A stretch of 32,143 bases of DNA from positions 1 through 32,143 of the IMG/VR virus record IMGVR_UViG_3300010233_000151. One strand, 5' to 3'. This DNA is from a virus. Within the stretch, counting starts at the first letter, position 1. Every line of letters begins with the position of its first letter. A program made the translations under genes and the position numbers. The notes under the pieces were generated by a model, which was not told the DNA's origin, made no database searches, and saw only the letters and a program-made list of their open reading frames with translations. This document shows, in pieces, positions 1-32,143 of the stretch.

Positions 1-716
1 ACGGAGCTTACAAAGCGATAGTAAAACATTGGGGAAGCATGGGTGCGTTTTGGACTGCTCTGTGGGGTGGAATAAAAAACATATTTCATGGTGCGTGGTC
101 GTTTATGAAGACCATCGTTGTCCTTATTGCGAATGTGCTGTTTGGTTGGTTAATTCCTTTCAACATCCTGAAGAATGGTATTGAAAACAGAATGAACGCT
201 ATAATGAACATTTTCAAGTCAATCCTCGGAGTTATACTGGCTATATTTTCGATGAATGGCTTCAAGATGTTTGAGGCTGGCAAAAACCTGATGCACGCTC
301 TGTGGAGTGGCATTAAGACAATGGCCCACCAGCCTATAGAGGCGATTGTGGCAATAGCTAAAAAAATACGTGGGTTCTTCCCATTCAGCCCGGCTAAGGA
401 AGGCCCATTGAGAGACATCCACAGGATAAGGCTTATAGAGACCATTGCCGAGGCTATTAAGCCTGCTGCGCTCATAGATAAGATGCGATCTGTTGCTGGT
501 CTTGTATTTAATTTCAAGGCAGCAGGAAGCGCAAGCGGTGGTGGATATGTAAGTGCTGCGGGAATACAGATAACATTTGCTCCTGTTTACCACGCGGCTT
601 CGGGTGGTGGTATAAATGACAAGCAAGCGTTTTTGTCTGAAGCTAAAAAGTGGAGCGCAGAATTGACTGATGTGGTTATGAAAGAGATTGATAAAAGAAA
701 CAGGAGGACTTATTAA
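1..716 (+). CDS. Tail tape measure protein, C-terminal part (5' end outside the window)
   Basis: The frame is open from the left edge, so the ATG at 39 is probably internal and the gene continues upstream. The visible part has several hydrophobic stretches. A segment then reads RGFFPFSPAKEGPLRD, a signature commonly seen near the C-terminus of phage tape measure proteins. After it come a Gly/Ala/Ser-rich linker and a charged helical tail. Tape measure proteins set tail length and may form the DNA channel at injection. The gene ends in TAATG, sharing a base with the next start, and sits directly before gpU-, gpX- and gpD-like genes as in P2-type tails. The family call rests on this context plus the C-terminal signature. 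Confidence 0.85.
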   Translation, partial: GAYKAIVKHWGSMGAFWTALWGGIKNIFHGAWSFMKTIVVLIANVLFGWLIPFNILKNGIENRMNAIMNIFKSILGVILAIFSMNGFKMFEAGKNLMHALWSGIKTMAHQPIEAIVAIAKKIRGFFPFSPAKEGPLRDIHRIRLIETIAEAIKPAALIDKMRSVAGLVFNFKAAGSASGGGYVSAAGIQITFAPVYHAASGGGINDKQAFLSEAKKWSAELTDVVMKEIDKRNRRTY

Positions 717-1576
717 TGTACCTACAACTTGGTAATATTGTTTTTGAAGCGTTGATCGGATTTACTGATTTCAAAAGGCAAATGGAAGCGACATTGCCTC
801 AACATGCACTTATCAATACTAAGCCACGTCTCGCTCGTACCGGAACGGAGTTGCAGGTTATAACAGGTACAGTACAGTTTCACTCAAGTTTCTGTGTTCC
901 CGAAGATGAAATACAGGCACTTGAGAATGCTTTGAATACAGGAGCTATCCTTCCATTCATTTATGGTAATGGTAGGGTTGTAGGCAACTTCGCCGTTTCT
1001 GCATTGACAGAAAACAGACTTCAGGAGAATGGGCGCGGAGACATAGTGATGGCTACTCTTGATATCACATTGAAGGAAAGCGTTGTAACAGATAGCACCG
1101 CAGCTAATCAAAAAAAATCTCAAGATTCCGCGTCTGCATTATCTAAAAACAATCCAAGCGCAGTAAGAGGTAAGTTGAATTATCCCGGTACTGATTCTAT
1201 GAAGGCAATTACTGCAATTACTGCTGCGCAATCCGAAGCTGGCAACATTGACACTCTTGCATCAAAAATTGCAAACACTCTTGGGTTCGCTACTCACGGT
1301 GGCAATATGATAGACTTGTCTCTTGACAATTTGGGTCGTGCAATGGGTGACGTTAGTAATGTTATGAATGGAAATGCAACGCTTGCTGGCCTCGCTCCAA
1401 ACTTGCCCGGCAGCATCAGTACAGTCCTTAATGGCATAGTAAACATGAGGGCCGTATTGCCCGTTACAGATATAAATGCTTTGATAAGCGCAAATGGTTT
1501 TCTTCAGGCATCTCTTGCGCAATTAAAGATTGATTCATCATCTATCAGTTCACAGTTAATATCAAGGAGGTTGTAA
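716..1576 (+). CDS. P2 gpU-like tail protein with long C-terminal extension
   Basis: The first ~125 residues match the P2 gpU family pattern: an LGNIVFE start, a KPRLARTGTELQ segment, an HSSFC segment, then PFIYGNG and a late TLKE motif. gpU-type proteins act at tail completion or as tail terminators. P2 gpU is about 159 residues, whereas this protein has 286. The extra ~150 residues are rich in Ala, Asn, Ser and Gly and have no recognisable domain. The start codon shares a base with the tape measure stop (TAATG), and the stop shares a base with the gpX-like start. The extension could be a lineage-specific virion decoration; that is inference. Confidence 0.8.
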   Translation: MYLQLGNIVFEALIGFTDFKRQMEATLPQHALINTKPRLARTGTELQVITGTVQFHSSFCVPEDEIQALENALNTGAILPFIYGNGRVVGNFAVSALTENRLQENGRGDIVMATLDITLKESVVTDSTAANQKKSQDSASALSKNNPSAVRGKLNYPGTDSMKAITAITAAQSEAGNIDTLASKIANTLGFATHGGNMIDLSLDNLGRAMGDVSNVMNGNATLAGLAPNLPGSISTVLNGIVNMRAVLPVTDINALISANGFLQASLAQLKIDSSSISSQLISRRL

Positions 1577-1797
1577 TGGCAGATGTTGTCTCTATACCAA
1601 TAACAGACGGGGAAACATGGTGTACTATAGCCAAGCGGTGCTATGGTGACGAAACGCTTACCAAGTACCTGATATATGCTAATCCAACTATCCCTGTAAC
1701 GGCAAGGATATACGGGTTCACTTCTATTTTTGCGCCAATACTTGATGCATCTGTTGCGCCAATACCCAAACAGTTATTCCCTCTATGGAAACAGTAA
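1576..1797 (+). CDS. P2 gpX-like tail protein (Phage_tail_X / LysM-like)
   Basis: This 73-residue protein has the gpX layout. An early GETWCTIAKRCYGD segment resembles the D-T-L-D-x-I-A-x-x-x-Y-G core of LysM-like tail X proteins. It is followed by I-Y-A-N-P and ends in a proline-containing tail, close to the ~67 residues of P2 gpX. Members are baseplate or tail-tip proteins that may contact peptidoglycan. The gene is coupled to gpU by TAATG and overlaps the downstream gpD-like start by 13 bases. Position between U and D is the P2 order and strengthens the call. Confidence 0.85.
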   Translation: MADVVSIPITDGETWCTIAKRCYGDETLTKYLIYANPTIPVTARIYGFTSIFAPILDASVAPIPKQLFPLWKQ

Positions 1798-3290
1798 GCC
1801 TTCCCATTCCTATATTTACCATCATATACAATGGTAAGGATATTACGCATGGCTTACAGCCGTACCTGATAAACCTTACCTATGATGATACTGTTCAGGG
1901 TGAAAGCGATCAAATTGAAATAACGCTTGAAAACGAGGATGGCTTATGGTCAAATGGTTGGTATCCTAACAAGGGCGACACGATAGATTGCTCTATAGGG
2001 CAGATGGATTGCGGTACATTTCAAGTTGACGAGATAGAGCTTAACGGCCCTCCTGATACCGTAGTTATACGTGCATTAACTACGATCATAGATAAAGACC
2101 TGAAGACCAAGAAAACAAAATCACATTCCAATAAAACGCTTCTGCAAATAGCGCAAGCTACTGCGCAGCACTCTAATCTGACACTTGTCGGAACCGGGAA
2201 TATACCGAGCGTTTTGATTGAGCATGTGACACAAAAAAGACTTACCGATTTAAAGTTCCTTCGTAAGTGCGCGGATAAGTATGGATGTATCTTTAGTGTT
2301 AAAAATACCAAACTTATATTCACTTCGATGTATGATTTGGAAAACAAACCACCATCTATTTCTGTTGATAAAACGCAGATGATAGACTATTCAATAAAAG
2401 ATAAAACATCTGAAACATACAAGTCGGCAGAGCTTCGTCATCACAATCCGAAGTCATCACAACTAATAACTTCTAAGTCTCAAATAAAAACAGTACAAAA
2501 TAATGAAGGAGTTTCTTATACCGAAATAACGCCCGGAGATACGCTGCTTGTGCATAGGAGAGTTGAGAACCAGCAGCAAGCAGATGAAGCAGTTAAATCA
2601 TCTCTGTATCGCGCAAACAGTAAGCAGCAAACAGGCACTATTAACATGCAAGGGACAGAGCTTGTCGTGGCTGGTAACAACATGGAAATTACGGGGCTTG
2701 GATATGTTGGTAGCGGTATTTGGCACATGATGAAATCGAAGCACAAAGTTGATAGGCAAAACTCTTGGCTCGTTGGTGTGGATATAAAAAGAGTTGCTGC
2801 GGTTAGTGTTGCCAAGCAGCAGTCATCAGGTGTTAAGTCGGGCAAGCCTGAACAATCTAAGGTTATTGTTCTTCAGAACAAAAACAACGTAAGCTATTCT
2901 AAAATAGTTGTAGGTTTTTCAGGTAAGCAAATATCCGCAGCAGACAAGTCGCTGCTTACGCTTATCTATAATGTATTGGTTGATTCAGGAAAGGGTTATG
3001 TCGCCAAAACTCTTAGTTACAATCAGGCAGAATCGCAGTACAATTCAGCCAATAAATACGCAGGTAGATTGTCTGCTCAAATATCAGAGGAATCGCAGTA
3101 CATAGCGGGTAGATTGTTCAATATATATAATGAAGATATTTTCGGCAGCATCAGCGACTATAGGGAGCAATCTCAAGTCAGCGCAGACATTGGTTCCCTT
3201 CAGGAATATATCAATAAACTGCTGGACGGAAAGCCTATAGATTCAAGCCCCGCGCTGCCGGGAGCAGGAAGTTTCACTCCAATAAATTGA
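1785..3290 (+). CDS. P2 gpD-like baseplate hub protein
   Basis: This 501-residue protein has the gpD/gp27 hub pattern. An N-terminal beta domain (IYNGKDITHGLQPYL, DQIEITLEN, W...GWYPNKGDTI) is followed by a GTFQVDEIE segment and a KTKKTKSHSNKTLLQIA region that fits the conserved centre of late control D proteins. The hub forms the central ring to which the spike attaches. P2 gpD is about 387 residues; the extra length is C-terminal and contains two ESQY...AGRL segments and a Pro/Gly-rich end. The start overlaps gpX by 13 bases. The stop lies immediately before a promoter for the spike gene. Confidence 0.85.
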   Translation: METVSLPIPIFTIIYNGKDITHGLQPYLINLTYDDTVQGESDQIEITLENEDGLWSNGWYPNKGDTIDCSIGQMDCGTFQVDEIELNGPPDTVVIRALTTIIDKDLKTKKTKSHSNKTLLQIAQATAQHSNLTLVGTGNIPSVLIEHVTQKRLTDLKFLRKCADKYGCIFSVKNTKLIFTSMYDLENKPPSISVDKTQMIDYSIKDKTSETYKSAELRHHNPKSSQLITSKSQIKTVQNNEGVSYTEITPGDTLLVHRRVENQQQADEAVKSSLYRANSKQQTGTINMQGTELVVAGNNMEITGLGYVGSGIWHMMKSKHKVDRQNSWLVGVDIKRVAAVSVAKQQSSGVKSGKPEQSKVIVLQNKNNVSYSKIVVGFSGKQISAADKSLLTLIYNVLVDSGKGYVAKTLSYNQAESQYNSANKYAGRLSAQISEESQYIAGRLFNIYNEDIFGSISDYREQSQVSADIGSLQEYINKLLDGKPIDSSPALPGAGSFTPIN

Positions 3291-3291
3291 G

Positions 3292-3323
3292 TTTGACATT
3301 ATAAATAATTTGCCATACATTTG
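3292..3323 (+). promoter_or_regulatory. Bacteroidota-type promoter in front of the spike gene
   Basis: TTTG at 3292-3295, 20 bases, then TACATTTG at 3316-3323. This matches the -33 TTTG / -7 TAnnTTTG form. The first usable start (GTG 3329) is only 5 bases after the -7 box, so the message would be nearly or fully leaderless. It lies inside the tail operon and could boost V-W-J-I expression. Confidence 0.65.
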
Positions 3324-3328
3324 TGGGA

Positions 3329-4053
3329 GTGATCGCCTACGGCTATATATGTGGTGTTGACCCGTCAACAGGTAAAGTCCAAGTAGAACTGGACGAAGAT
3401 TACGATGTTGAAAAGGGAACTAAGTTTGTAACTAATTGGCTCCCCGTTTCTTTCCCATTCACTCACGCTGATAAGTCCACATTTCCTTTCGACATAACCT
3501 CTCACGTATGGGTTATGTTTTCTGACGAAGAATGGGAAGACGGTATAGTTGGTGGATGTATTTATGATGCTAATAACACTCCCGATTCTGATGCTGGCCC
3601 CGACATTCATAAAATAACTTACAAAGATGGAAGTTATATAAAGTTTGACAGGTCTTCAGGTAAATATACCGTCAATGTAACTGGCGATATTAACTTCAGG
3701 CAGCAGGCAAGGTTGATGTTATTAGCGGTGGCGATGCCACAATAAATTCTTCTGCCAAAGCAAAAATAATTGCAGCTACCGAAATAGATGCTACAGCACC
3801 ATTCATCAAACTGACTGGCGACATACAAGTAACCGGAACATTAGAAGTTAGCGGAGCAGCAGTAGTTGCTTCTCTTGGCATAGGTGGTGGTGGTGGTATT
3901 GATTCGGGTGGCAATATGTCTTTGGCGGGAAGCATGTCGGCAGCAGGCGGTGTTGTTACAGGTGCGGATGTTGTTGCTGGCGGTAAGTCTCTGAAATTAC
4001 ATATTCACGGTGGAGTTCAAACAGGGTCAGGAGTAACCTCAACGCCAATATGA
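3329..4053 (+). CDS. P2 gpV-like baseplate spike, interrupted by an apparent -1 frameshift
   Basis: The first frame gives an OB-fold baseplate V N-terminus (VDPSTGKVQVEL, LPVSFPF, VWVMFSDEEWEDGIVGG) up to GDINFR and then stops at 3745. The neighbouring frame continues from about 3700 as AAGKVDVISGGDATINSSA and runs to a TGA at 4051-4053. It contains beta-spike repeats and ends LHIHGGVQTGSGVTSTPI, the HxH apex typical of gpV/gp45 spikes. Restoring one G near 3699-3700 joins both into about 241 residues (P2 gpV: ~211). The TGA overlaps the next ATG as ATGA, which supports the joined reading. The start is GTG 3329, or possibly GTG 3323, which overlaps the promoter. Real mutation, sequencing error and programmed -1 shift remain open; no canonical slippery heptamer is visible. 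Confidence 0.85.
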
Positions 4054-4481
4054 TAATATACGGAATTATATCGGACGTGTCTACTCCTAATTGGCAGATG
4101 GGCTTATCTCTTGGTCAGATACTTACTGACGAAGACGATATACAAATGTGCATCCATAATATTCTTTTCACGAGGAAAGGAGATTTGGTTTTGGACAGCG
4201 AATTTGGCAGTCTTATTTTCGACTATATAGACCTGCCTGTAGTTAAGTTGATTCCAAATGTAATTGCTGAAACTATCGCTGCAATTACTCTATACGAGCC
4301 GAGGGTTATTGTTGATACCATAACCTATTCAGTAAGCGATGATTTCAGCAACATACGATTCAACATTATTTGTACGGTAATAGCATCGGGTGTTCAAATA
4401 CCGTACACTTTCGATGCTGGTCAAGATACCATAAGTAGGGTTAGGTCTTTCAGCGATCAATTTTCAAATCAGTTTATATAA
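4050..4481 (+). CDS. P2 gpW-like baseplate wedge protein (gp25-like)
   Basis: This 143-residue protein carries the gp25/gpW pattern: an early DIQMCIHNILFTRKGDLVLDSEFGS segment matching the I..IL.T..GE...P.FG core, then DLP...LIPNVIAETIAAITLYEPRV, where the EPR triplet is the family hallmark. gp25-like proteins form part of the baseplate wedge that triggers sheath contraction. It overlaps the spike stop by ATGA and hands over to the gpJ-like gene through TAATGG. Length is slightly above P2 gpW (~115). Confidence 0.9.
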   Translation: MIIYGIISDVSTPNWQMGLSLGQILTDEDDIQMCIHNILFTRKGDLVLDSEFGSLIFDYIDLPVVKLIPNVIAETIAAITLYEPRVIVDTITYSVSDDFSNIRFNIICTVIASGVQIPYTFDAGQDTISRVRSFSDQFSNQFI

Positions 4482-5608
4482 TGGCTATAGATACAACCAC
4501 CATACCGGATTTCATTGTCGCAGACGCTAATCAGATATTAGCCGACTGCGTTGCTTTCTTTGAGGGCCAGTCCGGTAAAAAGCTACAGAGAGGGCAGGTT
4601 GAAAAAATGATCGTAAATCTGATCGCGTATCGCGAGAAGATAATAAAAGACCAAATAAATTCATCTTGCTCTACACAGCTACTTCGTTTTTCTTCAGCAC
4701 CAATGCTGGATTATCTCGTTGAGCTTGTTGGCGTTATCAGAATACCCGCGCAAGCAGCTACGGTTCAGCTACAGTATGATGTAGTAATGGGTCATACTGG
4801 CGTGACTGTTCCTGCCGGACACCGTGTGGGTTCTGTAGATGGCAAGGTTGTATTTGAAACCATAGTAAGCACATTTATACCTGTAGGAACCTACGAGGTA
4901 TTTATAGAGGCTGCTTGCCAGTCTACTGGCGTTATAGGCAACGGGTATGGTGTAGGCACTATAACAAGCATATTAGACCCATTGGCGTTCCTTGTTGACG
5001 TTACCAACCCTGCCGCTACGGATGGAGGGTCTGACCAAGAGACTGACGATCACTTGAGAGATCGTGCGAAGCTGGCCCCGGATGCATTCAGTAACGCGGG
5101 GTCTGTGGAGGCTTATAAGTATTGGGCCAAGACAGCACACCCATCTATTATAGATGTTGCCGTTACGCAGCCAACGCCGGGTACTGTTAAGCTGTGGCCC
5201 TTGATAGCATCAGGAACTACACCATCTCAAATAACTGACGCTGTACTGGCTGTATGCAGTCAAGACCACGTAAGGCCGTTAAGCGATACTGTACAGGCTG
5301 CCACGCCTACTGCTGCCAATTACGATATTGTTGTAAATCTTACTGCATTCACAGGGGGTGTAGATGCCACTATAATAAACTCTGTAACCGCCGCTTTGAC
5401 TTCGTATGCGCAAGCTCAAAAACTTCTTTTGGCTCAAAGTATTTCTGTGGCAAAGCTGATAGACATATGCATGAGAGATGTTGATTCTCTTGGCAACAAT
5501 ACAGTATTTGATGTTGCCGTACCTACACCTTCTGCGAATGTCGCAGTAGGTGCAACGCAATGGGCGAATATTGGAACGATAACAGTAAACATAGTAGGAC
5601 ATCACTAA
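4481..5608 (+). CDS. P2 gpJ-like baseplate assembly protein (Baseplate_J)
   Basis: This 375-residue protein shows the Baseplate_J order. An N-terminal helical part contains MLDYLVELVGVIR. A beta region follows with VTVPAGHRV, TG.IGNGYGVGTI and NPAATDGGSDQETDDHLRDRAKLAPDAFSNAGSVEAYKYWA, then TQPTPGTVKLWPL. The DGG...ETD...RDR motif and the AGS...Y..WA segment are strong markers of the family. It forms the wedge periphery with gpW and gpI. The upstream and downstream junctions are TAATGG and a one-base gap, consistent with a single translation-coupled operon. Confidence 0.92.
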   Translation: MAIDTTTIPDFIVADANQILADCVAFFEGQSGKKLQRGQVEKMIVNLIAYREKIIKDQINSSCSTQLLRFSSAPMLDYLVELVGVIRIPAQAATVQLQYDVVMGHTGVTVPAGHRVGSVDGKVVFETIVSTFIPVGTYEVFIEAACQSTGVIGNGYGVGTITSILDPLAFLVDVTNPAATDGGSDQETDDHLRDRAKLAPDAFSNAGSVEAYKYWAKTAHPSIIDVAVTQPTPGTVKLWPLIASGTTPSQITDAVLAVCSQDHVRPLSDTVQAATPTAANYDIVVNLTAFTGGVDATIINSVTAALTSYAQAQKLLLAQSISVAKLIDICMRDVDSLGNNTVFDVAVPTPSANVAVGATQWANIGTITVNIVGHH

Positions 5609-5609
5609 A

Positions 5610-6272
5610 ATGGGAGATCAGAACATTTTACCAAATAGCATTAAAGGAGAGAACACAAACATCCTTGAACTACTTATAGAGAATAGGTTTGATGCTATTG
5701 ATATAAGTTCCACGCTCGTCTATCTCGTAGACAGCGTATCTTCCGTTGCGCTGCCATATCTCGCAGAGCAATTTGATGTATCGTATGAATTTAACCAACT
5801 CACTACAGACCTTGATAAAAGGAACCTCATTAAAAATGCAGTTGACCTCAAGAAGTATATAGGAACTCCATATGCCATTAAGAAGTCCATGCAGGCTCTT
5901 GGGTACGGCGGTGCTGATCTCGTAGAGGGTGCTGGTACTGTTGGAGACGGTCACGATTGGGCGCGCTTCAGGGTGGTTGTTGATCTCGGAAATCAGGGTG
6001 GTGTAAATGGAGTTTCGGACAACCTCCTTACTTTCCTGATAAACAAGTATAAGAATGCGCGTAGTCAATTCCTTGATATTTCATACAAGGCTAACCTGTC
6101 TGAATACATGCCATTGATATCTGACGCGATGACTGTAGAGGCACATACCGATGTGTCCGATACAATCAACGTGAGTGGTTTCAAGTATGACGGAACCTAT
6201 AAGTATAATGGTGTAAAAAAGTATCGCCCCGGATTTGAGGACTTACAAATACAAATCATAAACGTACCATAA
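5610..6272 (+). CDS. P2 gpI-like tail protein (Tail_P2_I)
   Basis: This 220-residue protein follows gpJ with one base between them. It has the gpI layout: an N-terminal LPNSIKG segment, then LPYLAEQFDV matching the L..LA..F.V core, DKRNLIKNAVDLKKYIGTPYAIKKSMQALGY matching the R..i.....h...GT..ai...l..lG core, and a C-terminal beta region. gpI connects the baseplate wedge with the tail fibres. The end (FKYDGTYKYNGVKKY) carries short K-Y-(D/N)-G repeats, a feature seen at fibre-attachment ends. It is coupled by TAATG to the next gene. Confidence 0.88.
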   Translation: MGDQNILPNSIKGENTNILELLIENRFDAIDISSTLVYLVDSVSSVALPYLAEQFDVSYEFNQLTTDLDKRNLIKNAVDLKKYIGTPYAIKKSMQALGYGGADLVEGAGTVGDGHDWARFRVVVDLGNQGGVNGVSDNLLTFLINKYKNARSQFLDISYKANLSEYMPLISDAMTVEAHTDVSDTINVSGFKYDGTYKYNGVKKYRPGFEDLQIQIINVP

Positions 6273-6724
6273 TGCAACAGCAAAAAACGAAAATGCCTGA
6301 AGTAAAAGGCAGGGTAAACATAAAAGCATATCGTGGTGAAACCAATGAGCTTGCTTGGGAAGACACCGTAGACAACTTGGTTGTTGCTCTTGGCGAATCT
6401 ACCATACTGTATTCGTTAGACCCCAACAACGTCACGAACAGAACCATTACGCAGGTAGCGTTTGGAACTAACGGAACAGCTACTACGTTGGGAGATACAG
6501 CAATTACTAATCAGTTCATAAAGGCTATAGGAGCGACCACGCATCCTACCGCCACGTCAACCCTAATAGCATTCACGCTGGAAACAACGGAAGGCAATGG
6601 TATGACGATACAGGAGCTTGGCTTGGTTGGTCACGACAATGTTTTGTTTTCTCGGTTAACGAGGAATGGCATTGTTAAAACATCAGACATAAGGCTTGTG
6701 TGTACGTGGACTTTATCTTATTAA
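6272..6724 (+). CDS. Putative tail-fibre or baseplate-tip protein
   Basis: This 150-residue protein has no domain I can name with certainty. The pattern VKGRVNIKAYR, then NLVV, VAFGTNGTATTLGDT, an EGNGMTIQELGLVG segment and LFSRLTRNGIVKTSDIRL resembles small phage proteins found between gpI and the fibre genes. In these the GxxxT...T.L motif and the I.E.GL...+LF.R...........+ pattern recur. The position directly after the gpI-like gene, with a shared base, suggests a structural connector for the fibre. No signal peptide or TM segment is seen. Confidence 0.6.
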   Translation: MQQQKTKMPEVKGRVNIKAYRGETNELAWEDTVDNLVVALGESTILYSLDPNNVTNRTITQVAFGTNGTATTLGDTAITNQFIKAIGATTHPTATSTLIAFTLETTEGNGMTIQELGLVGHDNVLFSRLTRNGIVKTSDIRLVCTWTLSY

Positions 6725-6752
6725 TTTATCATTCTTTAATTAAACTTTTGAC

Positions 6753-7463
6753 ATGGCAGACTTAACGGCAACATCAAGCGATGATAGTATATATCAAATA
6801 GAGAGCGCAGATGACGTTCAGGGTGGCGCAGGTGCTATAGCTAATCGTCAGGCGCAGAGCTTGTTGAATAAAATAACATTCAATAAAGACCTGTACAATG
6901 GTGCAAATGCGCCAACGGTTCTTGTTCAGGTGTCAGATATGACGCTTAGTAGCGGAGGATGCAATAAGATGTATGTTATGCTGCTTGGAGAGGGCGACAT
7001 ATCATCTATAACATTGCCTGTGCTGTCTACATGCAAGACAGGAGATACACTCATATTTAGCGGCTCCGCGAATGGTGGTGCTATGACTGTGGTTCCTCAA
7101 GGTTCCGATAAAATAGTTGACCGCTACCTAAATTCTACTTCACTTTATATTGGGCCAAGAGAATCTGTATGCATGAGAAAAGGCCCGGCTGGATGGGTTA
7201 TAGTTTGGCACGAAGGGTTGGAGGTTCCGGCTGGCACTATTGTCTTAATTCCTCATGGAATAGGCATAGATACTGTAGGTTATCTTAAATGCGATAATAG
7301 CTATGTAGACCGGGTTGCTTATGCAAGGCTGTTCAATATCGTGCAAGACCACTATATAGCTTATTCTACACCACACATTACACAGTTTGGGTTGCCAAGC
7401 TACCCAAGCATAAGTGCTAATGGTGCAGGTGGCCCTGCTGCTGACTACTGGATTAAATACTAA
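6753..7463 (+). CDS. Tail fibre / tail-tip protein with collar-like C-terminal domain
   Basis: This 236-residue protein has a beta-rich N-terminal half. Its C-terminal segment (VPAGTIVLIPHG, GYLKCDNSYVDRVAYARLFNIV, then FGLPSYPSI) follows the phage tail collar pattern GW..CDG....r..Y..LF....F.LPD. The final YWIKY matches the W.IKY endings common on collar-domain fibres. A receptor-binding or tip role is therefore likely. Mature collar fibres usually have an RGR after the F.LPD motif, which is shortened here. The next gene, the lysozyme, starts 4 bases after the stop. Confidence 0.75.
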   Translation: MADLTATSSDDSIYQIESADDVQGGAGAIANRQAQSLLNKITFNKDLYNGANAPTVLVQVSDMTLSSGGCNKMYVMLLGEGDISSITLPVLSTCKTGDTLIFSGSANGGAMTVVPQGSDKIVDRYLNSTSLYIGPRESVCMRKGPAGWVIVWHEGLEVPAGTIVLIPHGIGIDTVGYLKCDNSYVDRVAYARLFNIVQDHYIAYSTPHITQFGLPSYPSISANGAGGPAADYWIKY

Positions 7464-7467
7464 TTAT

Positions 7468-7983
7468 ATGAACGAACAATTAAAGATGCTGCCCGAAGAT
7501 TGCGAACTCACTAAAGGGTATGAAAAACTAAGGCTCACAGCCTACAACGACAACCCTCACGACCCATCAAAAGGTAAGTGGACATATGGGTATGGTGCAA
7601 CTCACAAGATGGATGGTACGCCAGTTCAAGACGGCGACACTATAACGGAAGAAGAAGCACTTGACTTACTCGTACTCTGCATGGCTGAAGCTCAAACAAA
7701 AGTAAAGCAGCGCGTTCATGTAGAGCTTACTAAGCAACAATACATTCCGCTTGTAGACTTTGCATTCAATGCAGGCTCCGGCTATCACAATAAGCTCTTA
7801 GAGTATCACGACTACGATCTTTGGCACAACATCAACGAAGGTCTTGACGGAGATGAACTTTTCAACTACTGGACGACCTGCGCAATCACTCAAGGGGGCA
7901 TAAAGCTCGGAGGATTAATACGCCGCAGAAAATCACAAGTCACTTATTTTCAGACAGGAGAGCTTAATTTCTTTGAAGATTAA
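7468..7983 (+). CDS. GH24 phage lysozyme (endolysin)
   Basis: This 171-residue protein hydrolyses the peptidoglycan glycan backbone. I start at ATG 7468, because longer readings overlap the fibre gene. The T4-lysozyme catalytic set is visible: Glu19 in GYEKLRLTAYND, Asp28 nine residues later, and Thr39 in WTYGYG (equivalent to E-D-T). FAFNAGSG matches the FN.G segment that follows in the family. There is a short insertion between Asp28 and Thr39 compared with T4. No signal peptide or SAR-type N-terminus is visible, so release through a holin is expected. The lysozyme lies far from the holin and spanin candidates near 19840-20757. Confidence 0.9.
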   Translation: MNEQLKMLPEDCELTKGYEKLRLTAYNDNPHDPSKGKWTYGYGATHKMDGTPVQDGDTITEEEALDLLVLCMAEAQTKVKQRVHVELTKQQYIPLVDFAFNAGSGYHNKLLEYHDYDLWHNINEGLDGDELFNYWTTCAITQGGIKLGGLIRRRKSQVTYFQTGELNFFED

Positions 7984-8288: not shown

Positions 8289-8334
8289 AATTAATAAAGC
8301 CCTCTTTTAATATTAAAAGAGGGCTTTATTAATT
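8289..8334. terminator. Bidirectional palindromic terminator
   Basis: This is a perfect 46-base palindrome centred between 8311 and 8312, with core AAGCCCTCTTTTA and its complement. It sits between convergent genes ending at 8274 (+) and 8345 (-). T-rich stretches follow the GGG on both strands, so it can stop transcription from both sides. Confidence 0.85.
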
Positions 8335-8344
8335 GTCAGAAACA

Positions 8345-9353
8345 CTACACCATTTCCTCTGAAGCCCCGGCAGGTGGTGCGGCCTCTGAAGCGGGTGTAG
8401 ACCCTGTTTCTTCGGGCGTTTCAACCTTAGTTTCCGGTTGCTCTGTTTCTGCTGGTGGAACCACTTCTCCGGCAGGTGGTGGCGGGGCCGTTATCTTATC
8501 AAACATTTCCTTACCAATAGCCTGTATTTCAGGCACAGTCACGAGATGCTTTGCAGCAGCCTCTTTAACGGCCTTCAACTCCTGTACGGTAGTGCATTTT
8601 TTGAACTCTGCAATAAGCGCATCTACATCCTCTTTAACTATAGGGACTTTAACGCTACCCTCGCACCATTTTTTAATCAATGCACCTGTCTCTGCTGTTA
8701 TTACAAATGGAGCCTTGCCATCGAATAACCTGCTGCGGTCTTTGGTAGAGACCGCGTAGTGGTTCTGATCTATCTCAAGGTTGATAGTAAGCTCATACTC
8801 CCAACCTTTACGCGTTTGGTCTTTCAGGCCAGCCTTTACGGGCTTCTGAATTGATTTGCCAGCCCTGTTAATGTCGTCAACAAGTATGTATGCTTCGTCC
8901 TTCCTTACGGTGCATATGACATGGCATTTGCTCTCAAGTATAGCAGTCTTGAACTTCTCGTGTCTCGGTGTCATTTCCTTCCATGCTACCTGAAAAGAAC
9001 CTCCCATTTCGCCTACGGTATCAAGGATGCCACCTTCTCCGAGCCATTCGTGAGTAATGCTATCAATTATAATAACCTCGTCACCAGCATTTTCGCAATC
9101 TACTATTGCGTCAACGTGAATATGGGGCTTTGATGGAGATAACATTATACATACCCAAGTCTTCGTACAGGTCTGCGCTCCTGTTCTCGGAATCAATAAT
9201 TGTTATTTTTGACCAATCGCCGCATATCCCATATGCCATCAAGAGTGCGCCGTATGTCTTACCGCCTCCCGATAACGCAGCAATGCCTACGCGTATTTTT
9301 GCCATTTTACGAGCGACAGGTCGCCGCTTACCGTATTCTTGTTCATCTGCCAT
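8345..9353 (-). CDS. RecA-like P-loop ATPase (AAA_24 / Sak4-like), interrupted by an apparent frameshift
   Basis: The first frame (9353 downward) begins MADEQEYG and contains Walker A ALSGGGKT (Lys32) and an IIDSENRSADLYED segment, then stops at 9111. The adjacent frame picks up at HIHVDAIVDC and holds Walker B EVIIIDSITHEW, a conserved pattern of phage Sak4/AAA_24 ATPases used in DNA recombination or repair. Removing one base in the CCCC run (plus-strand 9124-9127) fuses them into about 335 residues. The last ~60 residues are Pro/Glu/Ala-rich and likely disordered. The gene has its own promoter divergent from the helicase promoter. It could be a real mutation, a programmed +1 shift, or a homopolymer sequencing error. 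Confidence 0.8.
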
Positions 9354-9429: not shown

Positions 9430-10836
9430 ATGATTACATTAAGAGACTATCAGGATTTAATGGTATCAGGCGTAAGGAAAGAGTACGCTGCCGGGAAAAG
9501 GAAGGTGTTGCTTCAGGGGCCGACAGGATGTGGAAAAACAATAATATTCAGCCACATAGCGCGCACTACAGTCCAAAGATCATACAAGGTGCTTATACTG
9601 GCCCACAGAATAGAACTGCTTGAACAATGTGGTTCCAAGCTCACGTTGAATGATGTAGATCTTGGGTTTGTAAATCCGAAATATTCACATAATCCATTTG
9701 CAAAAATACAGGTCGGAACTATTCAAACAGTAGTTAAGAGGATGCATAATATGCCAAACTTCTACCCTGACCTGATAATAGTAGACGAGTGTCATCGGAT
9801 TATGGGAGATACCTACAGGAAAATTCTAAGGTACTATAATAAATCCCGCCTACTCGGAGTAACAGCCACGCCAATAAGGCTTGATGGTAAGTCTCTCGGA
9901 GATGTCTTTGAGAGCATGGTACTTGGCCCTACAGTATTGGAATTAATAAGCAGGGGTGCGCTGGTAAGACCCATCACTTACGCGCCAATAGAACAGTTTG
10001 ATTTTTCTGACATCAGAACAGTCGCTGGTGACTACGACAAGAAAGAGCTTGAAAAAAGAGTAGACTTACCAAAGATCACAGGCAACGCAGTATCTCATTA
10101 CAAAATGATATGCCCCGGAACATCGGCTGTCGCCTTCTGCGTTAGCATAGACCACGCAAAGCATGTCGCCGCAGACTTCAGGGCCGCAGGGTATATGTTT
10201 GAGCATATAGATGGCACTATGGATTCTGAAACTCGCGGCAATATACTCAAGGCTGTAGCTGAAGGAAGGCTTACTGGCATAACAAGCGTTGACCTTATAA
10301 CGGAAGGATTTGATGCGCCAATGCTTCAGACTGCTATAATACTGCGACCAACAGAAAGTGTTGGGTTGTATATACAAATGGCAGGTAGGGTTTTGAGACC
10401 GTTCCCCGGCAAAGAGGTTGCCTTTATATTAGACCACGCTGGATGCACATTAAATCATGGTTTAATTACAGAAAATCAAGGCTGGTCTCTTGTTAAAGAA
10501 GGAGACAGCAAGAAAAGAACGCGTGGACAAAAGGAGAAGCTAATAAAGGTAAAGCAATGTCCCAAGTGCTATCTCATGCACCCGCCAGCGCATGGGTGTC
10601 CCGGCTGCGGATATATATACGTTATACAAGGCGATATTCCTAATGTAGACGAATCAAGAGGGCTTCAGGAAGTCACCACAAAGACGATGCTCATGCTTAA
10701 AAAACAAAGAGCAAAGGAAGTGGGCATGGCAAAGACTTACGAAGAACTTGAGGCAATAGAGATGGTCAGAAATTACAAGAAAGGATGGGCTAAATCTGTT
10801 TGGTTAGGTCGCAATAAAAAACTTAATTTGGTATAA
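9430..10836 (+). CDS. SF2 DEAD/DEAH-type helicase with C-terminal zinc ribbon
   Basis: This 468-residue protein has a full SF2 motif set: Q-motif region RDYQ, Walker A GPTGCGKT (residues 30-37), DECH box at about 117-120, GVTATP (motif III) near 143-148, TEGFDAP, and QMAGRVLRP (motif VI) near 315-323. After the helicase core a CPKC ... CPGC pair (about 376 and 390) fits a zinc ribbon. The layout resembles phage UvsW/RadD-type helicases that unwind branched DNA in replication and recombination. It is divergent from the RecA-like ATPase gene, forming a recombination pair. The start is the first ATG after the promoter. Confidence 0.92.
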   Translation: MITLRDYQDLMVSGVRKEYAAGKRKVLLQGPTGCGKTIIFSHIARTTVQRSYKVLILAHRIELLEQCGSKLTLNDVDLGFVNPKYSHNPFAKIQVGTIQTVVKRMHNMPNFYPDLIIVDECHRIMGDTYRKILRYYNKSRLLGVTATPIRLDGKSLGDVFESMVLGPTVLELISRGALVRPITYAPIEQFDFSDIRTVAGDYDKKELEKRVDLPKITGNAVSHYKMICPGTSAVAFCVSIDHAKHVAADFRAAGYMFEHIDGTMDSETRGNILKAVAEGRLTGITSVDLITEGFDAPMLQTAIILRPTESVGLYIQMAGRVLRPFPGKEVAFILDHAGCTLNHGLITENQGWSLVKEGDSKKRTRGQKEKLIKVKQCPKCYLMHPPAHGCPGCGYIYVIQGDIPNVDESRGLQEVTTKTMLMLKKQRAKEVGMAKTYEELEAIEMVRNYKKGWAKSVWLGRNKKLNLV

Positions 10837-11475: not shown

Positions 11476-11767
11476 GGCTGTCGCTAAGGTAGACATCCCA
11501 AACAAATACAGGGAGCCGCGCAAGACGGATACACCTATGACTGATGCGCAGCGCAAGGAGTACAGACAAGCCCATCCAAACGCAAAGCCGGAGGACTTGT
11601 TTGTAACCCTTGTCACTCCGGTTTTGTTTTGCAAGAAAGGAGATACATTGCTGGTTATAACCGAAGACATAGGCGACCACAGGAATGTTATTATCTGCGC
11701 AAACAAACAAGACGAAAGGGTATCAGTTAAAATGTCGGAGGTTGATATAATTACGCCACATGAATGA
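11447..11767 (+). CDS. Hypothetical protein (106 aa), TTG start
   Basis: The frame overlaps the end of the preceding gene by 29 bases and overlaps the VRR-NUC start by 8 bases, so it fits a coupled operon. The first possible start is TTG 11447; an ATT at 11471 is an alternative and the first internal ATG is late. The product has a charged N-terminus and then a beta-rich C-terminal half (PEDLFVTLVTPVLFCKKGDTLLVI, VSVKMSEVDIITPHE). No family recognised. Confidence 0.55.
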   Translation: MASLEKRKIEAVAKVDIPNKYREPRKTDTPMTDAQRKEYRQAHPNAKPEDLFVTLVTPVLFCKKGDTLLVITEDIGDHRNVIICANKQDERVSVKMSEVDIITPHE

Positions 11768-12149
11768 GACTAACGTATCAAGGGATATAATGCTTGCTAT
11801 CGGAGCAAAATGTAGAGATGTACGCATCTTCAGAAACAATGTTGCGCTGGCGTGGGTTGGCAAAACAATTTCCAATAAAGATGGTGTATTGAAGTTGGCA
11901 AATGCAAGACCACTACATGCTGGCTTGTGTCCCGGCAGCAGCGATCTCATTGGGTGGAAAAAAACAACTATCACTCCTGATATGGTAGGCAAAGAGGTAG
12001 CCATATTCCTTGCTATAGAGGTAAAGAAGTCTTCTAAAAGCACAGCGTCCGAGGGGCAATTAAATTTTTTAGAGCAGGTAAAAAAGAATGGTGGCATTGG
12101 AATAATCACAGTAACAGCAGACGAGGCTATAAGGCTTCTTGAAAAATAA
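11760..12149 (+). CDS. VRR-NUC domain nuclease
   Basis: This 129-residue protein matches the single-domain VRR-NUC proteins of phages. RNNVALAWVG fits the RNN.G....G opening, LCPGSSDLIGW carries the catalytic G.sD pair, and FLAIEVKK carries the catalytic E.K. A Q.NFLEQVKKNGGIGII segment follows, as in the family (Q..f...v...Gg). These enzymes are PD-(D/E)XK nucleases thought to cut branched or junction DNA. It lies between an unknown protein and the primase in a replication block. Length is typical. Confidence 0.9.
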   Translation: MNETNVSRDIMLAIGAKCRDVRIFRNNVALAWVGKTISNKDGVLKLANARPLHAGLCPGSSDLIGWKKTTITPDMVGKEVAIFLAIEVKKSSKSTASEGQLNFLEQVKKNGGIGIITVTADEAIRLLEK

Positions 12150-12151
12150 AT

Positions 12152-14887
12152 ATGAAGTACGACTTCCCTGAACTCAAACGCCGCGCTGACATTCTATCAA
12201 CCGTCAGCAACTATGTCTCTCTCAAAAAAGACGGAGCCAATTGGGTTGGCTGCTGTCCATTCCACGATGAAAAAACATCATCATTTGTAGTCTCTGTTTC
12301 AAAAGGAATATTCAAGTGTTTTGGCTGCGGTAAAGCTGGTGACGCATTGGATTTTTTACAAGCGCAAGGCTTCACTCTTGAAGAAATAAATGAGATGATA
12401 ATGGGCGATAGGTTTTTGCCATCCAAAGTTCAGAAGGTAAAAAAAACCATTGCTGCTAAAAAATGGGCGCAGGCCGTGCCTACATCCCCGTGTAGCGACT
12501 TTACGCATTACAGGCTTGGATTGCCTGTCAAGGTTTGGGCGTGGCTGGACGCATCAGGAAAAGTATTTGCTTACGATTGCCGATTTGAGAGAGAAGAAGA
12601 AGGCCGCGTCACCAAGCAAGTATTACCACTTACATATGCCACAGACGGAACCTACAGCGAATGGAGATGGATGGGTATGCAAGACTCAAGACCACTCGCC
12701 AATCTGCCTAAAATACTGAAGGATTCAGACCGTTCCATTATGATCGTAGAGGGCAGAAAAACGATGGAAGCAGCAGAGCAGCTACTATCGAAACCAATAC
12801 TCACCACATGGCAAGGCGGCGGTCATGCAGTTAAACAAACCGATTGGTCGCCTCTGTACGGCAAGAAGATAATTATTTGGCAAGACAACGACCACCCCGG
12901 CTATATGACAGCCTGCGAAATAGCGGAGATACTGAAGCCTCATTGCGACACTATAAAATTTGTTCATAATCCTGAAGAAGCGCAGAAGGGTTGGGACGCA
13001 GCAGATGCCCTCGCAGAAGGTTGGGACGCTGAAAGAGCGCGTAAGTATGTCAATAGCAACATACACGCAGAGCCGCAGGTAAAATTCAATGACAAGGCCC
13101 AAGAATCGCATGTAGACCCGTATGAGATTGAAGCTCCGAGCCATGTTAAAAAACAACACAAAGAACCTGCTGCATCCCTACCTGACAGACCGCTAAATCC
13201 TGATGTGATAAATACAGAATCTCAACCGCCTACAGAGCCGCAGGATGATAACGACACGGGTATATTATGCGCTCACTTCAGATTCTTGGGATTCGTGAAT
13301 AAGGATGGCAAGCTGACTTATTGTTTCTACTGCAACAGGTCTCGGACTGTAGTTAGGCTATCCACGTCAAGCATGGGTAAAGGTGCGAATCTTATTGATA
13401 TTGCGCCTCTTGAGTTTTGGCAAGAGAACTTCCCCGGCAAAGCAGGTTTTGATCTCGCTGGCGCGGTTAATTGGCTGGTCGGAACATCGCAGGCTATAGG
13501 TATGTTCAGCGTGTCTAAGATACGGGGCAGAGGGGCTTGGATTGAAGGCGAAAGATTCGTCTATCACTCCGGCGACATTGTGTATGTAGATGGCAGAAGA
13601 TTCACGTTAAATGAATACCGCAGCAAGTATATATACGAGGTCGGAAATCCTTTGGGAATTGACCTAAGCAACCCATTGCCGAGAGAGCAGGCAAACGTAT
13701 TCCTTCAGATGTCCAAGCGGCTGAAATGGGAACGAGACATCAACGCTTACCTGTTCGCCGGATGGTGTGTTATAGCCCCTATTTGCGGGTTGCTGAAATG
13801 GAGACCTCACGTATGGATAACAGGCGGTTCGGGGAGTGGTAAGTCTTGGATTCTCAAGAACATCCTGAAGGCTGTAATAATGAATACTGGCATCTATGTT
13901 CAAGGGGCCACATCCGAAGCTGGCCTGCGTCAATCATTGATACAAGATGCGCTGGCTGTGGTCTATGACGAAGCTGAAAGCGAGGACAGGTCAGATCAAG
14001 AACGATTTCAAAAGATACTCAATCTTGCCCGGTCTTCATCTTCGGAGGATGGGGGTAATATCATAAAGGGAACTGTATCGTCCGGCGCAGATGTGTATAG
14101 CATACGTTCCTGCTTCGCCTTCGCCTCTATAGGTATGCAGGTATCTATGCAGAGCGACAAGTCCCGTATCACGCCGCTATCGCTTGTGGCGTATGCTCAA
14201 ACGCCGGAAGGAGAGATTGAGAGAATAAGCCATTTTGACGAACTGAAAAAGTTCATGCGAGAAAAATTTCCTGAAGACTTCGGCACAAGGTTTCAGGCCC
14301 GGACAATACGCATGTTGCCTACGCTGCTGAAAAACATAAAAACATTCTCTGATGCTGCGGCTTCTATGCTTGGGCAGCAGCGCATGGGAGATCAGTTAGG
14401 GGCTATGATGGCTGGCGCATACAGCCTCGTAAGCGATGGTGAAATTGATTATGAGAAAGCTAAGGAGTGGATTAAAGACAAGGATTGGAGCGAGGAATAC
14501 GCACTCAAAGAACACAAGGACGAAAGAGACCTGCTGCAATTCCTATTGGAACAAACCATAAAAATAGAAGGCGCTCATACCACATGGGATAGAAGCATAG
14601 GCGAGGCTATAGATGTAGTGTTGGGAAGGGATGTAGATGGGCATATAGCCAAAGGCTCCTGTGAAATGTCGCTGCTGCGCTGCGGCATCAAGATAAAAGA
14701 CGGAAAGATGGTTGCCATAAGCAATTCATCAAACTACATCAAAAAAGCACTCCGCGAAACATCTTGGTCTAAAAACCATTCAACAATACTACTGCGCATA
14801 CCATTTGCTGTTAAATTAGAGAGCGAGAGATTCGGCAGCAGCTTATCTTCCCGTGCTGTAGGAGTACCAATTTCTTACATTGATTAA
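12152..14887 (+). CDS. Bifunctional primase-helicase (CHC2 zinc finger, Toprim, P-loop ATPase)
   Basis: This 911-residue protein begins with a CHC2-type zinc finger: Cys35, His38, Cys56, Cys59. A Toprim core follows, with MIVEGRK (about 197-203) and IIIWQDND (about 240-247), which provide the metal-binding Glu and Asp-x-Asp. A Cys-rich second motif lies near 372-395. A P-loop ATPase domain has Walker A GGSGSGKS (about 557-564) and Walker B LAVVYDEAE (about 600), resembling DUF927-type or SF3-like phage helicases. It would make primers and unwind DNA at the fork. It is 2 bases after the VRR-NUC gene. The exact helicase superfamily is uncertain. Confidence 0.9.
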   Translation: MKYDFPELKRRADILSTVSNYVSLKKDGANWVGCCPFHDEKTSSFVVSVSKGIFKCFGCGKAGDALDFLQAQGFTLEEINEMIMGDRFLPSKVQKVKKTIAAKKWAQAVPTSPCSDFTHYRLGLPVKVWAWLDASGKVFAYDCRFEREEEGRVTKQVLPLTYATDGTYSEWRWMGMQDSRPLANLPKILKDSDRSIMIVEGRKTMEAAEQLLSKPILTTWQGGGHAVKQTDWSPLYGKKIIIWQDNDHPGYMTACEIAEILKPHCDTIKFVHNPEEAQKGWDAADALAEGWDAERARKYVNSNIHAEPQVKFNDKAQESHVDPYEIEAPSHVKKQHKEPAASLPDRPLNPDVINTESQPPTEPQDDNDTGILCAHFRFLGFVNKDGKLTYCFYCNRSRTVVRLSTSSMGKGANLIDIAPLEFWQENFPGKAGFDLAGAVNWLVGTSQAIGMFSVSKIRGRGAWIEGERFVYHSGDIVYVDGRRFTLNEYRSKYIYEVGNPLGIDLSNPLPREQANVFLQMSKRLKWERDINAYLFAGWCVIAPICGLLKWRPHVWITGGSGSGKSWILKNILKAVIMNTGIYVQGATSEAGLRQSLIQDALAVVYDEAESEDRSDQERFQKILNLARSSSSEDGGNIIKGTVSSGADVYSIRSCFAFASIGMQVSMQSDKSRITPLSLVAYAQTPEGEIERISHFDELKKFMREKFPEDFGTRFQARTIRMLPTLLKNIKTFSDAAASMLGQQRMGDQLGAMMAGAYSLVSDGEIDYEKAKEWIKDKDWSEEYALKEHKDERDLLQFLLEQTIKIEGAHTTWDRSIGEAIDVVLGRDVDGHIAKGSCEMSLLRCGIKIKDGKMVAISNSSNYIKKALRETSWSKNHSTILLRIPFAVKLESERFGSSLSSRAVGVPISYID

Positions 14888-26360: not shown

Positions 26361-27131
26361 ATGAAGTATGCAGCTATTTATGTTTGCGGGTTTCTGATGA
26401 CACCCGATGGCAAACACGTTCTTTTGATGACAAAGAACTACCCAACAGACTACAAAGGCGAAGGTCGCCTGAAGTGGCAACACGGCCTGATGAACGGCGT
26501 AGGTGGTCGCGCGCAAGAAGGCGAAACGCCAGCACAAGCGATGATACGCACCTTCCAAAAAGAAACGGGTGTAGATAGCAAAACAGCCGAGGTAAACTGG
26601 ATGCCATTCGCAGACCTTACCTACAATGACGACAAGGGCTTAGGAATTGTCCAATTCTTCTGCGCCAAAGCACCAACCGAGGCTGTTTTTGCTGATGCCA
26701 AGTCCCTCACGGACGAAACACTCCACATCATCCCGGTTATCCATGTAGGGATGCACAACATCGTGCGCAATCTCGCATTCTTAACGGCTATGGCTGCATT
26801 GTTCCAACCCGGCGCATATGCAATGATGGCAGATGACAGCATGAAGGCTGATCTCGGAGTAAGCATGGCTAACAAGCCGGCTACCTATCTTGACCCCGCA
26901 CAAAAGGAAGGTCAGGACGAGGCAGAAAACAATGCTGCCGGGTCAAAAGGTACTGATACCGCACCCGCCGAAAGCATTCCCTCCGGCCCTGCTGAAAAAA
27001 CTCCGGCCCCACCCGCCGAAACTCCATCAACCCCGCCATCAACCCCGGAAGAAAAACCCGAAGAAACCGCAGGTACTCCACCAGCGTCAACTGAAGGTGG
27101 GCAGCCCGGCGAAGAACCTACGCATATATAG
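26361..27131 (+). CDS. Nudix-like hydrolase with degenerate box and proline-rich tail
   Basis: Residues 1-~165 have Nudix layout. The box G-x5-E-x7-R is present (Gly49, Glu55, Arg63), but the following REUxEExGU reads R-T-F-Q-K-E-T-G-V, so the first Glu of REUxEE is Thr64 and the next is Lys67. Only Glu68 of the metal-binding set remains, so activity is doubtful. After about residue 180 the chain is a Pro/Glu/Ala/Thr-rich disordered tail. The last coding 55 bases (27062-27116) recur inverted at the right edge of the window. Leader resembles that of the gene at 15878. Confidence 0.75.
   Translation: MKYAAIYVCGFLMTPDGKHVLLMTKNYPTDYKGEGRLKWQHGLMNGVGGRAQEGETPAQAMIRTFQKETGVDSKTAEVNWMPFADLTYNDDKGLGIVQFFCAKAPTEAVFADAKSLTDETLHIIPVIHVGMHNIVRNLAFLTAMAALFQPGAYAMMADDSMKADLGVSMANKPATYLDPAQKEGQDEAENNAAGSKGTDTAPAESIPSGPAEKTPAPPAETPSTPPSTPEEKPEETAGTPPASTEGGQPGEEPTHI
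27062..27116 (+). repeat. 55-bp inverted repeat, left copy
   Basis: This is identical to the reverse complement of 32089-32143, and possibly longer, since the right copy meets the window edge. It encodes ETAGTPPASTEGGQPGEE in the Nudix tail and the same peptide in the minus-strand edge gene. Confidence 0.9.
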
Positions 27132-27200
27132 TATAAATATCTTATGTGGAAGTGTTTAATAATCAATGATTTACAACATGATAAACAATAGCTATTTAAC

Positions 27201-27257
27201 TATTATAGTATAGTGTATTAGTATTGATAATCAATGTTAATACACTATACTATAATA
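27201..27257. repeat. Inverted repeat with 20-base arms and nested palindrome
   Basis: Arm TATTATAGTATAGTGTATTA (27201-27220) and its exact complement (27238-27257) flank 17 bases that contain the palindrome ATTGATAATCAAT (27223-27235). It could extrude as a cruciform or be bound by a dimeric protein. Confidence 0.8.
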
Positions 27258-27508
27258 ATACATAATAGCGTTAATAAGCTATTGTATATAATAACAGTTT
27301 GATTAATAGTGCTATTTGCTATGCTGAAACGCTTTATTTTGGGCTTTATGGCAGCATATGCTCCCATATGCCCAAATATGGGCGTATTAGCACGGAAACA
27401 AGGCAATACAGCGCGATAATGGGAAAGTAACCCAATACCACAGAAAGCCCCCATGCAAAGGATTTAAAGCCAGTAAATAAGTATTGAGACCATGCCAGCA
27501 TGTAAAAA

Positions 27509-27539
27509 ATAAGCGTAAACACGCATTGTTTACGCTTAT
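27509..27539. repeat. Inverted repeat of the GTTTACGC element
   Basis: ATAAGCGTAAAC (27509-27520) and GTTTACGCTTAT (27528-27539) are exact complements with a 7-base gap. Confidence 0.8.
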
Positions 27540-27894
27540 AACATTGATAATCAATTAATTACAACACTAACATATTAAATTAAATTAATCAATGTTTACG
27601 CTGGTTTACGCTTAACTAATTGATTATCATACCTATTACTATAAATGTATTCAATGTAAACAGGATAGTATATTATATAGAGCATTCAAATAAAAACAAA
27701 CTAACATACATTTAAAGGTCTTTACTCTCTATATAGTTTTATATTTTCCGTAAAATCGTTACAAAAACCATAACTGATTGATTATCATAACAAATTACGT
27801 CAGCAGGCGTAAACGCATTATAATAATAAACAGTATAATTAAGTATTAACTAATTGGTTATCAATACATTGATATTTATAATTAATAATAAATA

Positions 27895-27934
27895 TTTGTT
27901 TACGCTCTGTTTACGTTTACATCTTAGATGTAAA
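27895..27934 (+). promoter_or_regulatory. Weak promoter with palindromic operator for the HTH gene
   Basis: TTTG 27895-27898, 19 bases, TACATCTT 27918-27925 is a weak -7 match. A perfect 9-1-9 palindrome TTTACATCTTAGATGTAAA (27916-27934) covers the -7 region, which suggests repression, perhaps by the HTH protein itself. Confidence 0.45.
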
Positions 27935-27951
27935 ATGATTAATATTGTACT

Positions 27952-28200
27952 ATGGAAACAGTAACAATGTATGAATTATCCCTGTCTTTGCGCGTAACGC
28001 GTCAAACCGTTTACAAATGGGTAAAAGATGGGAAAATTGCCCGACAATGGGACAATGAAAGGAAAGTATATGTAGTGCCAAATATTAAGGCAATGCCAGT
28101 GTATAAGAATGCCAAAGAACGGCTATTGATATGCTTGCCATGTGTGGGTATATCTGTAGTAAAAATAAAACCCCGATACAAATATAAGTATCGGGGTTAA
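27952..28200 (+). CDS. Small HTH (MerR/excisionase-like, HTH_17) DNA-binding protein
   Basis: This 82-residue protein has MYELSLSLRVTRQTVYKWVKDGKIARQW (residues 6-33), a typical HTH_17 helix-turn-helix as found in excisionases and MerR-type regulators, followed by a wing-like KVYVVP. A short basic C-terminus follows. The last ~10 residues are encoded by a hairpin (28169-28198) that serves as the terminator of the convergent minus-strand operon. The promoter carries a palindrome. It may bind the adjacent repeats, acting as an origin or directionality factor; that is inference. Confidence 0.7.
   Translation: METVTMYELSLSLRVTRQTVYKWVKDGKIARQWDNERKVYVVPNIKAMPVYKNAKERLLICLPCVGISVVKIKPRYKYKYRG
28169..28198 (-). 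terminator. Terminator of the minus-strand operon, inside the HTH gene 3' end
   Basis: Ten-base stem AACCCCGATA/TATCGGGGTT, loop of 10. The T-rich tail (TTTTATTTTTA) follows on the minus strand, and plus-strand sequence after it is A-rich. It stops transcription of 28219-29507 and lies within the last codons of the HTH gene. Confidence 0.85.
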
Positions 28201-32007: not shown

Positions 32008-32143
32008 TTACGACTGCGCTGGTGGCTGTTCACCTGCGGGAACTGCTTCCGGGGCAGAGAGTGGGTCTGCTGGCGCAGCAGGAGGCATTTCTTCGCCGGG
32101 CTGCCCACCTTCAGTTGACGCTGGTGGAGTACCTGCGGTTTCT
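32008..32143 (-). CDS. C-terminal end of a gene with proline-rich tail (enters from right edge)
   Basis: The minus-strand frame is open from the edge to TAA at 32008-32010, and a terminator follows. The ~44 visible residues are Pro/Ala/Glu-rich, beginning ETAGTPPASTEGGQPGEE, identical to the Nudix protein's tail, then MPPAAPADPLSAPEAV. What the upstream part of the protein is cannot be seen. The shared part is the 55-bp inverted repeat. Confidence 0.7.
   Translation of the reverse strand, partial: ETAGTPPASTEGGQPGEEMPPAAPADPLSAPEAVPAGEQPPAQS
32089..32143 (-). repeat. 55-bp inverted repeat, right copy
   Basis: Exact reverse complement of 27062-27116, cut by the window edge, so the true repeat may be longer. 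Confidence 0.9.

Follow-up and report, generated by a model that had tools for sequence, protein, structure and literature searches.

We propose that an AT-rich, gene-free region at positions 27132-27951 of the window is the replication origin of this phage. The window is the whole 32,143-nucleotide stretch that we analyzed, a linear virus fragment from IMG/VR. An earlier note on this DNA had suggested that the region may be the phage origin, and this emerged as the best-supported reading on grounds that the note did not hold, namely a layout shared with a replication module in related phages and a natural swap between two relatives, loci L069 and L070. We estimate a probability of roughly 80% that the region is an origin of the initiator-helicase/iteron type that resembles phage-inducible islands (PICIs) in layout. 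Two words recur in the region, GTTTACGC, which we read as iterons, and a longer second element first described as ATTGATnATCAAT. The features of the region and of the adjoining gene are listed here, with the strand in parentheses and a dot where no strand applies.

27132-27951 (.): proposed replication origin, AT-rich and gene-free (ORF list, GC, duplex stability)
27161-27173 (+): IHF-consensus-like site AATCAATGATTTA, a match to WATCARNNNNTTR
27178-27292 (.): long AT-rich palindrome with 28-nt and outer 23-nt arms and the second element at its tip (RNA fold of 27132-27320, z -4.9)
27292-27304 (-): IHF-consensus match AATCAAACTGTTA, not of the second-element family
27509-27539 (.): perfect inverted iteron pair of the left set, 13-nt arms and 5-nt center (inverted-repeat search)
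27549-27561 (+): IHF-consensus-like site AATCAATTAATTA inside a second element
27594-27611 (+): two direct GTTTACGC iterons 10 bp apart, left set
27612-27806 (.): AT-rich gap between the iteron sets, GC 0.24, candidate melting site
27613-27629 (-): second element TGATAATCAATTAGTTA, IHF-like
27771-27787 (-): second element TGATAATCAATCAGTTA, IHF-like
27807-27814 (-): single inverted iteron, right set
27853-27874 (.): second element with one mismatch; IHF-consensus matches at 27859 (+) and 27862 (-)
27898-27916 (+): two direct iterons 11 bp apart, GTTTACGC and GTTTACGT, right set
27916-27934 (.): small palindrome TTTACATC-TTA-GATGTAAA between the right iteron set and the HTH start codon (read in the sequence; paired in a DNA fold)
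27952-28200 (+): 82-aa HTH_17 protein adjoining the region, with a terminator-like hairpin over its 3' end

The region differs in composition from the rest of the record. Its GC content is 27%, compared to 42% for the whole record, and of the record's 200 least stable 100-bp windows, 172 begin inside or at the region. No plausible ORF lies inside these 820 bases, as the note had stated. Transcription is convergent just to the right. GC skew, a check that the note had proposed, and third-position skew gave no clear origin signal in this record and were uninformative. Rfam and tRNA scans were empty. DNA searches with the region or with composite motifs against phages, plasmids, and viral contigs returned nothing useful and no DNA-level relative.

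The first word is concentrated in two sets. About seven copies in both orientations had been reported, and we found six exact copies of GTTTACGC (27513-, 27528+, 27594+, 27604+, 27807-, and 27898+) plus one copy with a single mismatch, GTTTACGT (27909+). There are no exact copies in the rest of the 32,143-base record, which is a linear IMG/VR fragment and not a whole genome. The word is far above chance, as claimed: 1000 dinucleotide shuffles of the 820 bases gave a mean of 0.02 copies and a maximum of 1. An inverted repeat of this word, described as 12 bases long, is real and has perfect 13-nt arms (27509-27521 and 27527-27539). The iteron sets at 27509-27611 and 27807-27916 flank a gap of 195-203 bp with a GC content of 0.24, a layout that is a feature of PICI origins.

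The second word required more revision. The count of five ATTGATnATCAAT elements was overstated, as only two copies are exact (27223 and 27543); the others are inexact, with one mismatch at 27853 and two mismatches at 27155, 27619, and 27777. The claim that the word exceeds chance was borne out, since its core TTGATNATCA gave six strand-hits at four sites compared to a shuffle mean of 0.01. The second word is better described as an oriented, IHF-consensus-like element than as a palindrome. In an oriented alignment it reads roughly TTGATAATCAATTAGTTA and matches the IHF consensus of E. coli, WATCARNNNNTTR, in the form given in PMC8407004 and elsewhere, a fit that we noticed after the second element had been seen. 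Matches to this consensus number seven in the 820 bp, compared to 0.16 expected by local shuffling and 13 in the whole record; these are not seven independent hits because the copies are partly repeats of one another. Other phage DNA (1.57 Mb) contained at most three IHF-consensus matches per 800 bp. The pattern TGATAATCANNNNGTTA occurs twice in the window and, in a set of 110 fetched loci, is confined to the arrays of L011 and L022/L057.

A 20-base-arm inverted repeat with the second element nested in it had also been described. The repeat and the nested element are real, but the arms are longer than stated. They span 28 nt (27201-27228 and 27230-27257), are 93% complementary, and have the second element at their center. 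An outer pair of 23-nt arms (27178-27200 and 27270-27292) encloses them. We set aside the idea that this palindrome is a telomere-resolvase site because of its odd single-base center and because no resolvase was seen in the fragment.

The window carries the genes of a tailed phage. Tail, baseplate, and endolysin genes occupy positions 39-7983, and the lack of tail genes that would mark a satellite is not a feature of this record. After the tail and lysis genes comes a replication module, whose products are a ResIII-type helicase, a VRR-type nuclease, a CHC2/Toprim primase-helicase of 911 aa, a DUF3127 single-strand-binding-like protein, and a topoisomerase-like protein that shares 60-64% identity with its counterparts in Chryseobacterium and Cellulophaga phages. 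This identity, together with the DUF3127 protein, points to a probable host among the Bacteroidota. Three genes of the module recur in the relatives described below.

9430-10836 (+): ResIII/DEAD-type helicase of the shared replication module
11760-12149 (+): VRR-type nuclease, also of the shared module; phages Dolphis and Jeremy have it annotated as VRR-Nuc
12152-14887 (+): CHC2/Toprim primase fused to an AAA+ helicase and a C-terminal domain, proposed iteron-reading initiator (Pfam/PHROG; fold match to SCCmec Cch and SaPI5 PriRep)

Conservation in related phages had been named as a check on the origin, and it gave support. Scans with the primase or the HTH protein as single proteins turned up no relatives. 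An alignment-based primase scan identified 80 viral loci, most of which also carry the helicase and the nuclease. The two-set iteron layout recurs with this helicase/VRR-nuclease/primase-helicase module, often immediately 3' of the primase-helicase gene. We scored arrays, defined as five or more copies of an 8-mer within 400 bp, in a panel of 42 loci made non-redundant at 80% primase identity. Dense arrays were present in 24 of the 42, including some clusters (L055, L029, L068, and L074) that consist of other words and may be coding repeats. The best array window fell within -200 to +400 of the primase stop in 10 of these 24 loci, compared to 3.4% of windows (binomial P about 3e-9). Array words of the GTNAC/TGTNNNC type were found in 16/24 loci versus 54/1850 windows, a count that is descriptive because the word class was chosen after the arrays had been seen. 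The words resemble one another across relatives (TGTTTACGC, TGTTTACAC, TGTTACGC, and TGTAACGC). Many relatives had no clear array within the sequence examined, and there was none near the primase of PY223, Jeremy, ZRG1, or Mwe-JY13.

Individual relatives show the arrangement too. L022 and L020 each have an AT-rich, gene-free stretch with direct and inverted GTTTACAC repeats, and that of L022 contains IHF-like sites. In Bdellovibrio phage phi1422, an isolate, seven GGTAACAC words lie directly after the primase, and words of this type form two sets around an AT-rich stretch there. Arrays also lie beside the primase gene in Synechococcus phage S-H1 and Acinetobacter phage Acjo_20; the TGTTACAC-type array of Acjo_20 (L109:1500-1960) is upstream of the gene, not downstream. 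The largest gap between iteron sets in the relatives compared is about 70-210 bp and is usually more AT-rich than the locus. Examples are L028 (150 bp, GC 0.24), L022 (106 bp, 0.21), L011 (102 bp, 0.23), and L058 (182 bp, 0.40 in a locus of 0.59); the gap is not AT-rich in L040 and L059. Phages reached through the topoisomerase-like gene have little else in common with the window in the sequences compared, except for L011, which has TGTTTAC repeats and the second element TTGATAATCATTAAGTTA. The L011 contig begins 417 bp upstream of its topoisomerase gene and no primase was found in it, so it is neutral on the identity of the initiator. L036 and L040 have primases that are 86% identical and slightly different iterons (TGTTACGC and TGTCACGC), making them a possible pair for a recognition test.

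The gene to the right of the array bears on two other readings of the region. Adjacency to an HTH gene had been used as an argument for the origin, but its standing as a defining neighbor is not supported: matches to PF12728 are scattered in the relatives, and in neither L022 nor L020 was one identified next to the array. The neighboring HTH gene is probably not essential. A single-sequence model of its product was poor (pLDDT 52) and was left out of the analysis. If the region were instead the operator of this gene, the words would be regulator sites for its autoregulation. The gene begins immediately downstream of the array and is apparently transcribed alone, with the transcript ending in the terminator-like hairpin. 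However, 820 bp would be excessive for one 82-aa gene, the first word is confined to the region within this record, and L022 and L020 have arrays with no such gene identified beside them. We consider an operator very unlikely.

An attachment site (attP) would assign the iterons to arm-type sites, the second element to IHF sites, and the HTH_17 protein to an excisionase. The protein does show excisionase-family similarity, IHF-like sites are present, and the direct repeats have a 10-11 bp spacing like that for recombination directionality factors (PMC7498355). Direct pairs with this spacing would suit head-to-tail binding by excisionase-type proteins (PMC7498355, PMC5859096). Yet no integrase is among the annotated proteins of the window, itself a fragment, and the region lacks the tRNA T-arm sequence TTCGA. 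No prophage with this primase was found in 395 Bacteroidota genomes, a result that weighs little because the search had no positive control. Phages of varied composition also carry the layout together with the replication module, and we regard an attP as highly improbable.

The arrays tend to be close to terminase genes, so a packaging site had to be considered. In a cos or pac site the small terminase would read the repeats and IHF would bend the DNA, as IHF does at cosB of phage lambda. Where the large terminase was mapped, the arrays of the relatives mostly lie 5' of the terminase genes, within ~0.3-2.5 kb of them. In the AT-rich L062-64 and L080-99 groups the array is several kb from the primase (7-9 kb or more) and nearer the terminase. 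The window itself combines IHF-like sites with an HTH_17 protein that is weakly similar to small terminases, but no terminase is visible in it, and two iteron sets that flank AT-rich DNA are a better fit to an origin. The comparison of L069 and L070 bears on the choice between the two readings. Their primases are 91% identical, and a 1937-bp block of 82.6% identity runs through the primase to the end of the array, with the sliding-clamp gene next (66%). The two loci thus share iterons, primase, and clamp, but their small and large terminases are unrelated. This natural swap indicates that the array stays linked to the replication genes rather than to the terminase. It counts against a packaging site, and we judge that reading unlikely.

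The primase-helicase of the module is the candidate initiator for the proposed origin. Its structural model (mean pLDDT 87, from an alignment of 53 sequences) gave SCCmec Cch (5dgk) as the best solved fold match for residues 373-911, with a Z score of 16.3, 431 aligned residues, and an rmsd of 7.1. MCM helicases and SaPI5 PriRep (Z 14.5) followed, and Foldseek also listed PriRep1 with dsDNA; because MCM entries lie within 2 Z units of Cch, the fold match alone identifies an AAA+ helicase of a broad class. Among the matches listed, the alignment reaches residue 911 for Cch and 896 for SaPI5 PriRep (7om0). The primase part consists of Zn_ribbon_DnaG and Toprim domains and is not of the archaeo-eukaryotic type that SaPIbov1 and SaPI5 have.

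The proposed origin shares features with several known systems. The alpha protein of satellite phage P4 is likewise a primase-helicase-initiator fusion with iterons, and the P4 iteron word, GGTGAACAG, is similar to words of the TGTTTACAC type. The origins of iteron plasmids and of lambda have short repeats, AT-rich DNA, and IHF-like bending sites, as the window does. Their initiators, however, are Rep or O proteins rather than primase-helicases, and their iterons are regularly spaced on the same strand, whereas those of the window are in mixed orientation. The closest resemblance in layout is to the pri-rep-ori of PICIs and SaPIs, where a primase and an initiator helicase are fused or adjacent and two iteron sets flank an AT-rich region (PMC6092414, PMC7581432). 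In PICIs this region lies 3' of pri-rep, and its describers knew of no other bacterial replicon organized in this way (PMC6092414). SaPI Rep reads iterons directly downstream of its gene, and the PICI/SaPI initiator does so with its C-terminal domain (PMC7581432); the helicase part of the window protein matches the fold of SaPI5 PriRep and Cch. The SCCmec protein Cch2 also binds direct repeats downstream of its gene (PMC7581432). The window differs in that it belongs to a tailed phage that carries tail and lysis genes of its own, its array is 12.6 kb from the primase-helicase gene rather than immediately 3' of it, and IHF-like sites are added. Its primase is DnaG-type (CHC2/Toprim), unlike the archaeo-eukaryotic primases of SaPIbov1 and SaPI5 (PMC7581432). 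SCCmec Cch and Cch2 lack a fused DnaG-type primase and belong to a staphylococcal cassette element, not a phage.

By analogy with these systems, we infer that the window's own primase-helicase (12152-14887) reads GTTTACGC. Its C-terminal part would bind the iterons, and the protein would assemble on both sets (27509-27611 and 27807-27916), on either side of the gap at 27612-27806. It would then melt the AT-rich DNA, load, and prime, as described for SaPI Rep proteins. The second element (TGATAATCAnnnnGTTA) may be a bending site for a host protein of the IHF/HU family, and the long palindrome may be an accessory structure. The protein-element pairings, melting, bending, and origin activity are all put forward conditionally, as the relatives show co-occurrence and not function.

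The relatives also suggest a broader model, which we favor, if less firmly than the origin itself. A large, widespread family of autonomous tailed phages may use satellite-type origins, in which a DnaG-type primase fused to a Rep/Cch-like helicase reads related iterons (TGTTTACGC, TGTTTACAC, TGTTACGC, TGTAACGC, and similar words) arranged as two sets with a melting gap between them, and in which the origin is able to relocate away from the gene. Most metagenomic phages lack a mapped origin. If the model is true, the origin of the whole family could be located from sequence by finding the primase-helicase and then a TGTNAC-type array. It would also extend to free-living tailed phages a layout known to its describers from phage-inducible islands alone (PMC6092414). 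Paired variation in iteron word and initiator would offer a ready test of DNA recognition by these helicases.

We made several further observations on the record. Its last 55 bases (32089-32143) are the exact reverse complement of the tail codons of a NUDIX gene (27062-27116), in frame in both directions. The segment between these inverted copies may be invertible, or the contig may have been cut at the repeat; 55 is a common assembler word length. At 8345-9353, two overlapping minus-strand frames match consecutive stretches of phrog_1366 (positions 6-74 and 74-272). A frameshift or a sequencing error thus seems to have divided a RecA-like gene here. A perfect 46-bp palindrome at 8289-8334 lies between convergent genes and is probably a two-way terminator. 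Finally, proline/alanine/glutamate-rich tails end several unrelated phage proteins (8345-9196, 15878-16231, 19798-20181, and 26361-27131).
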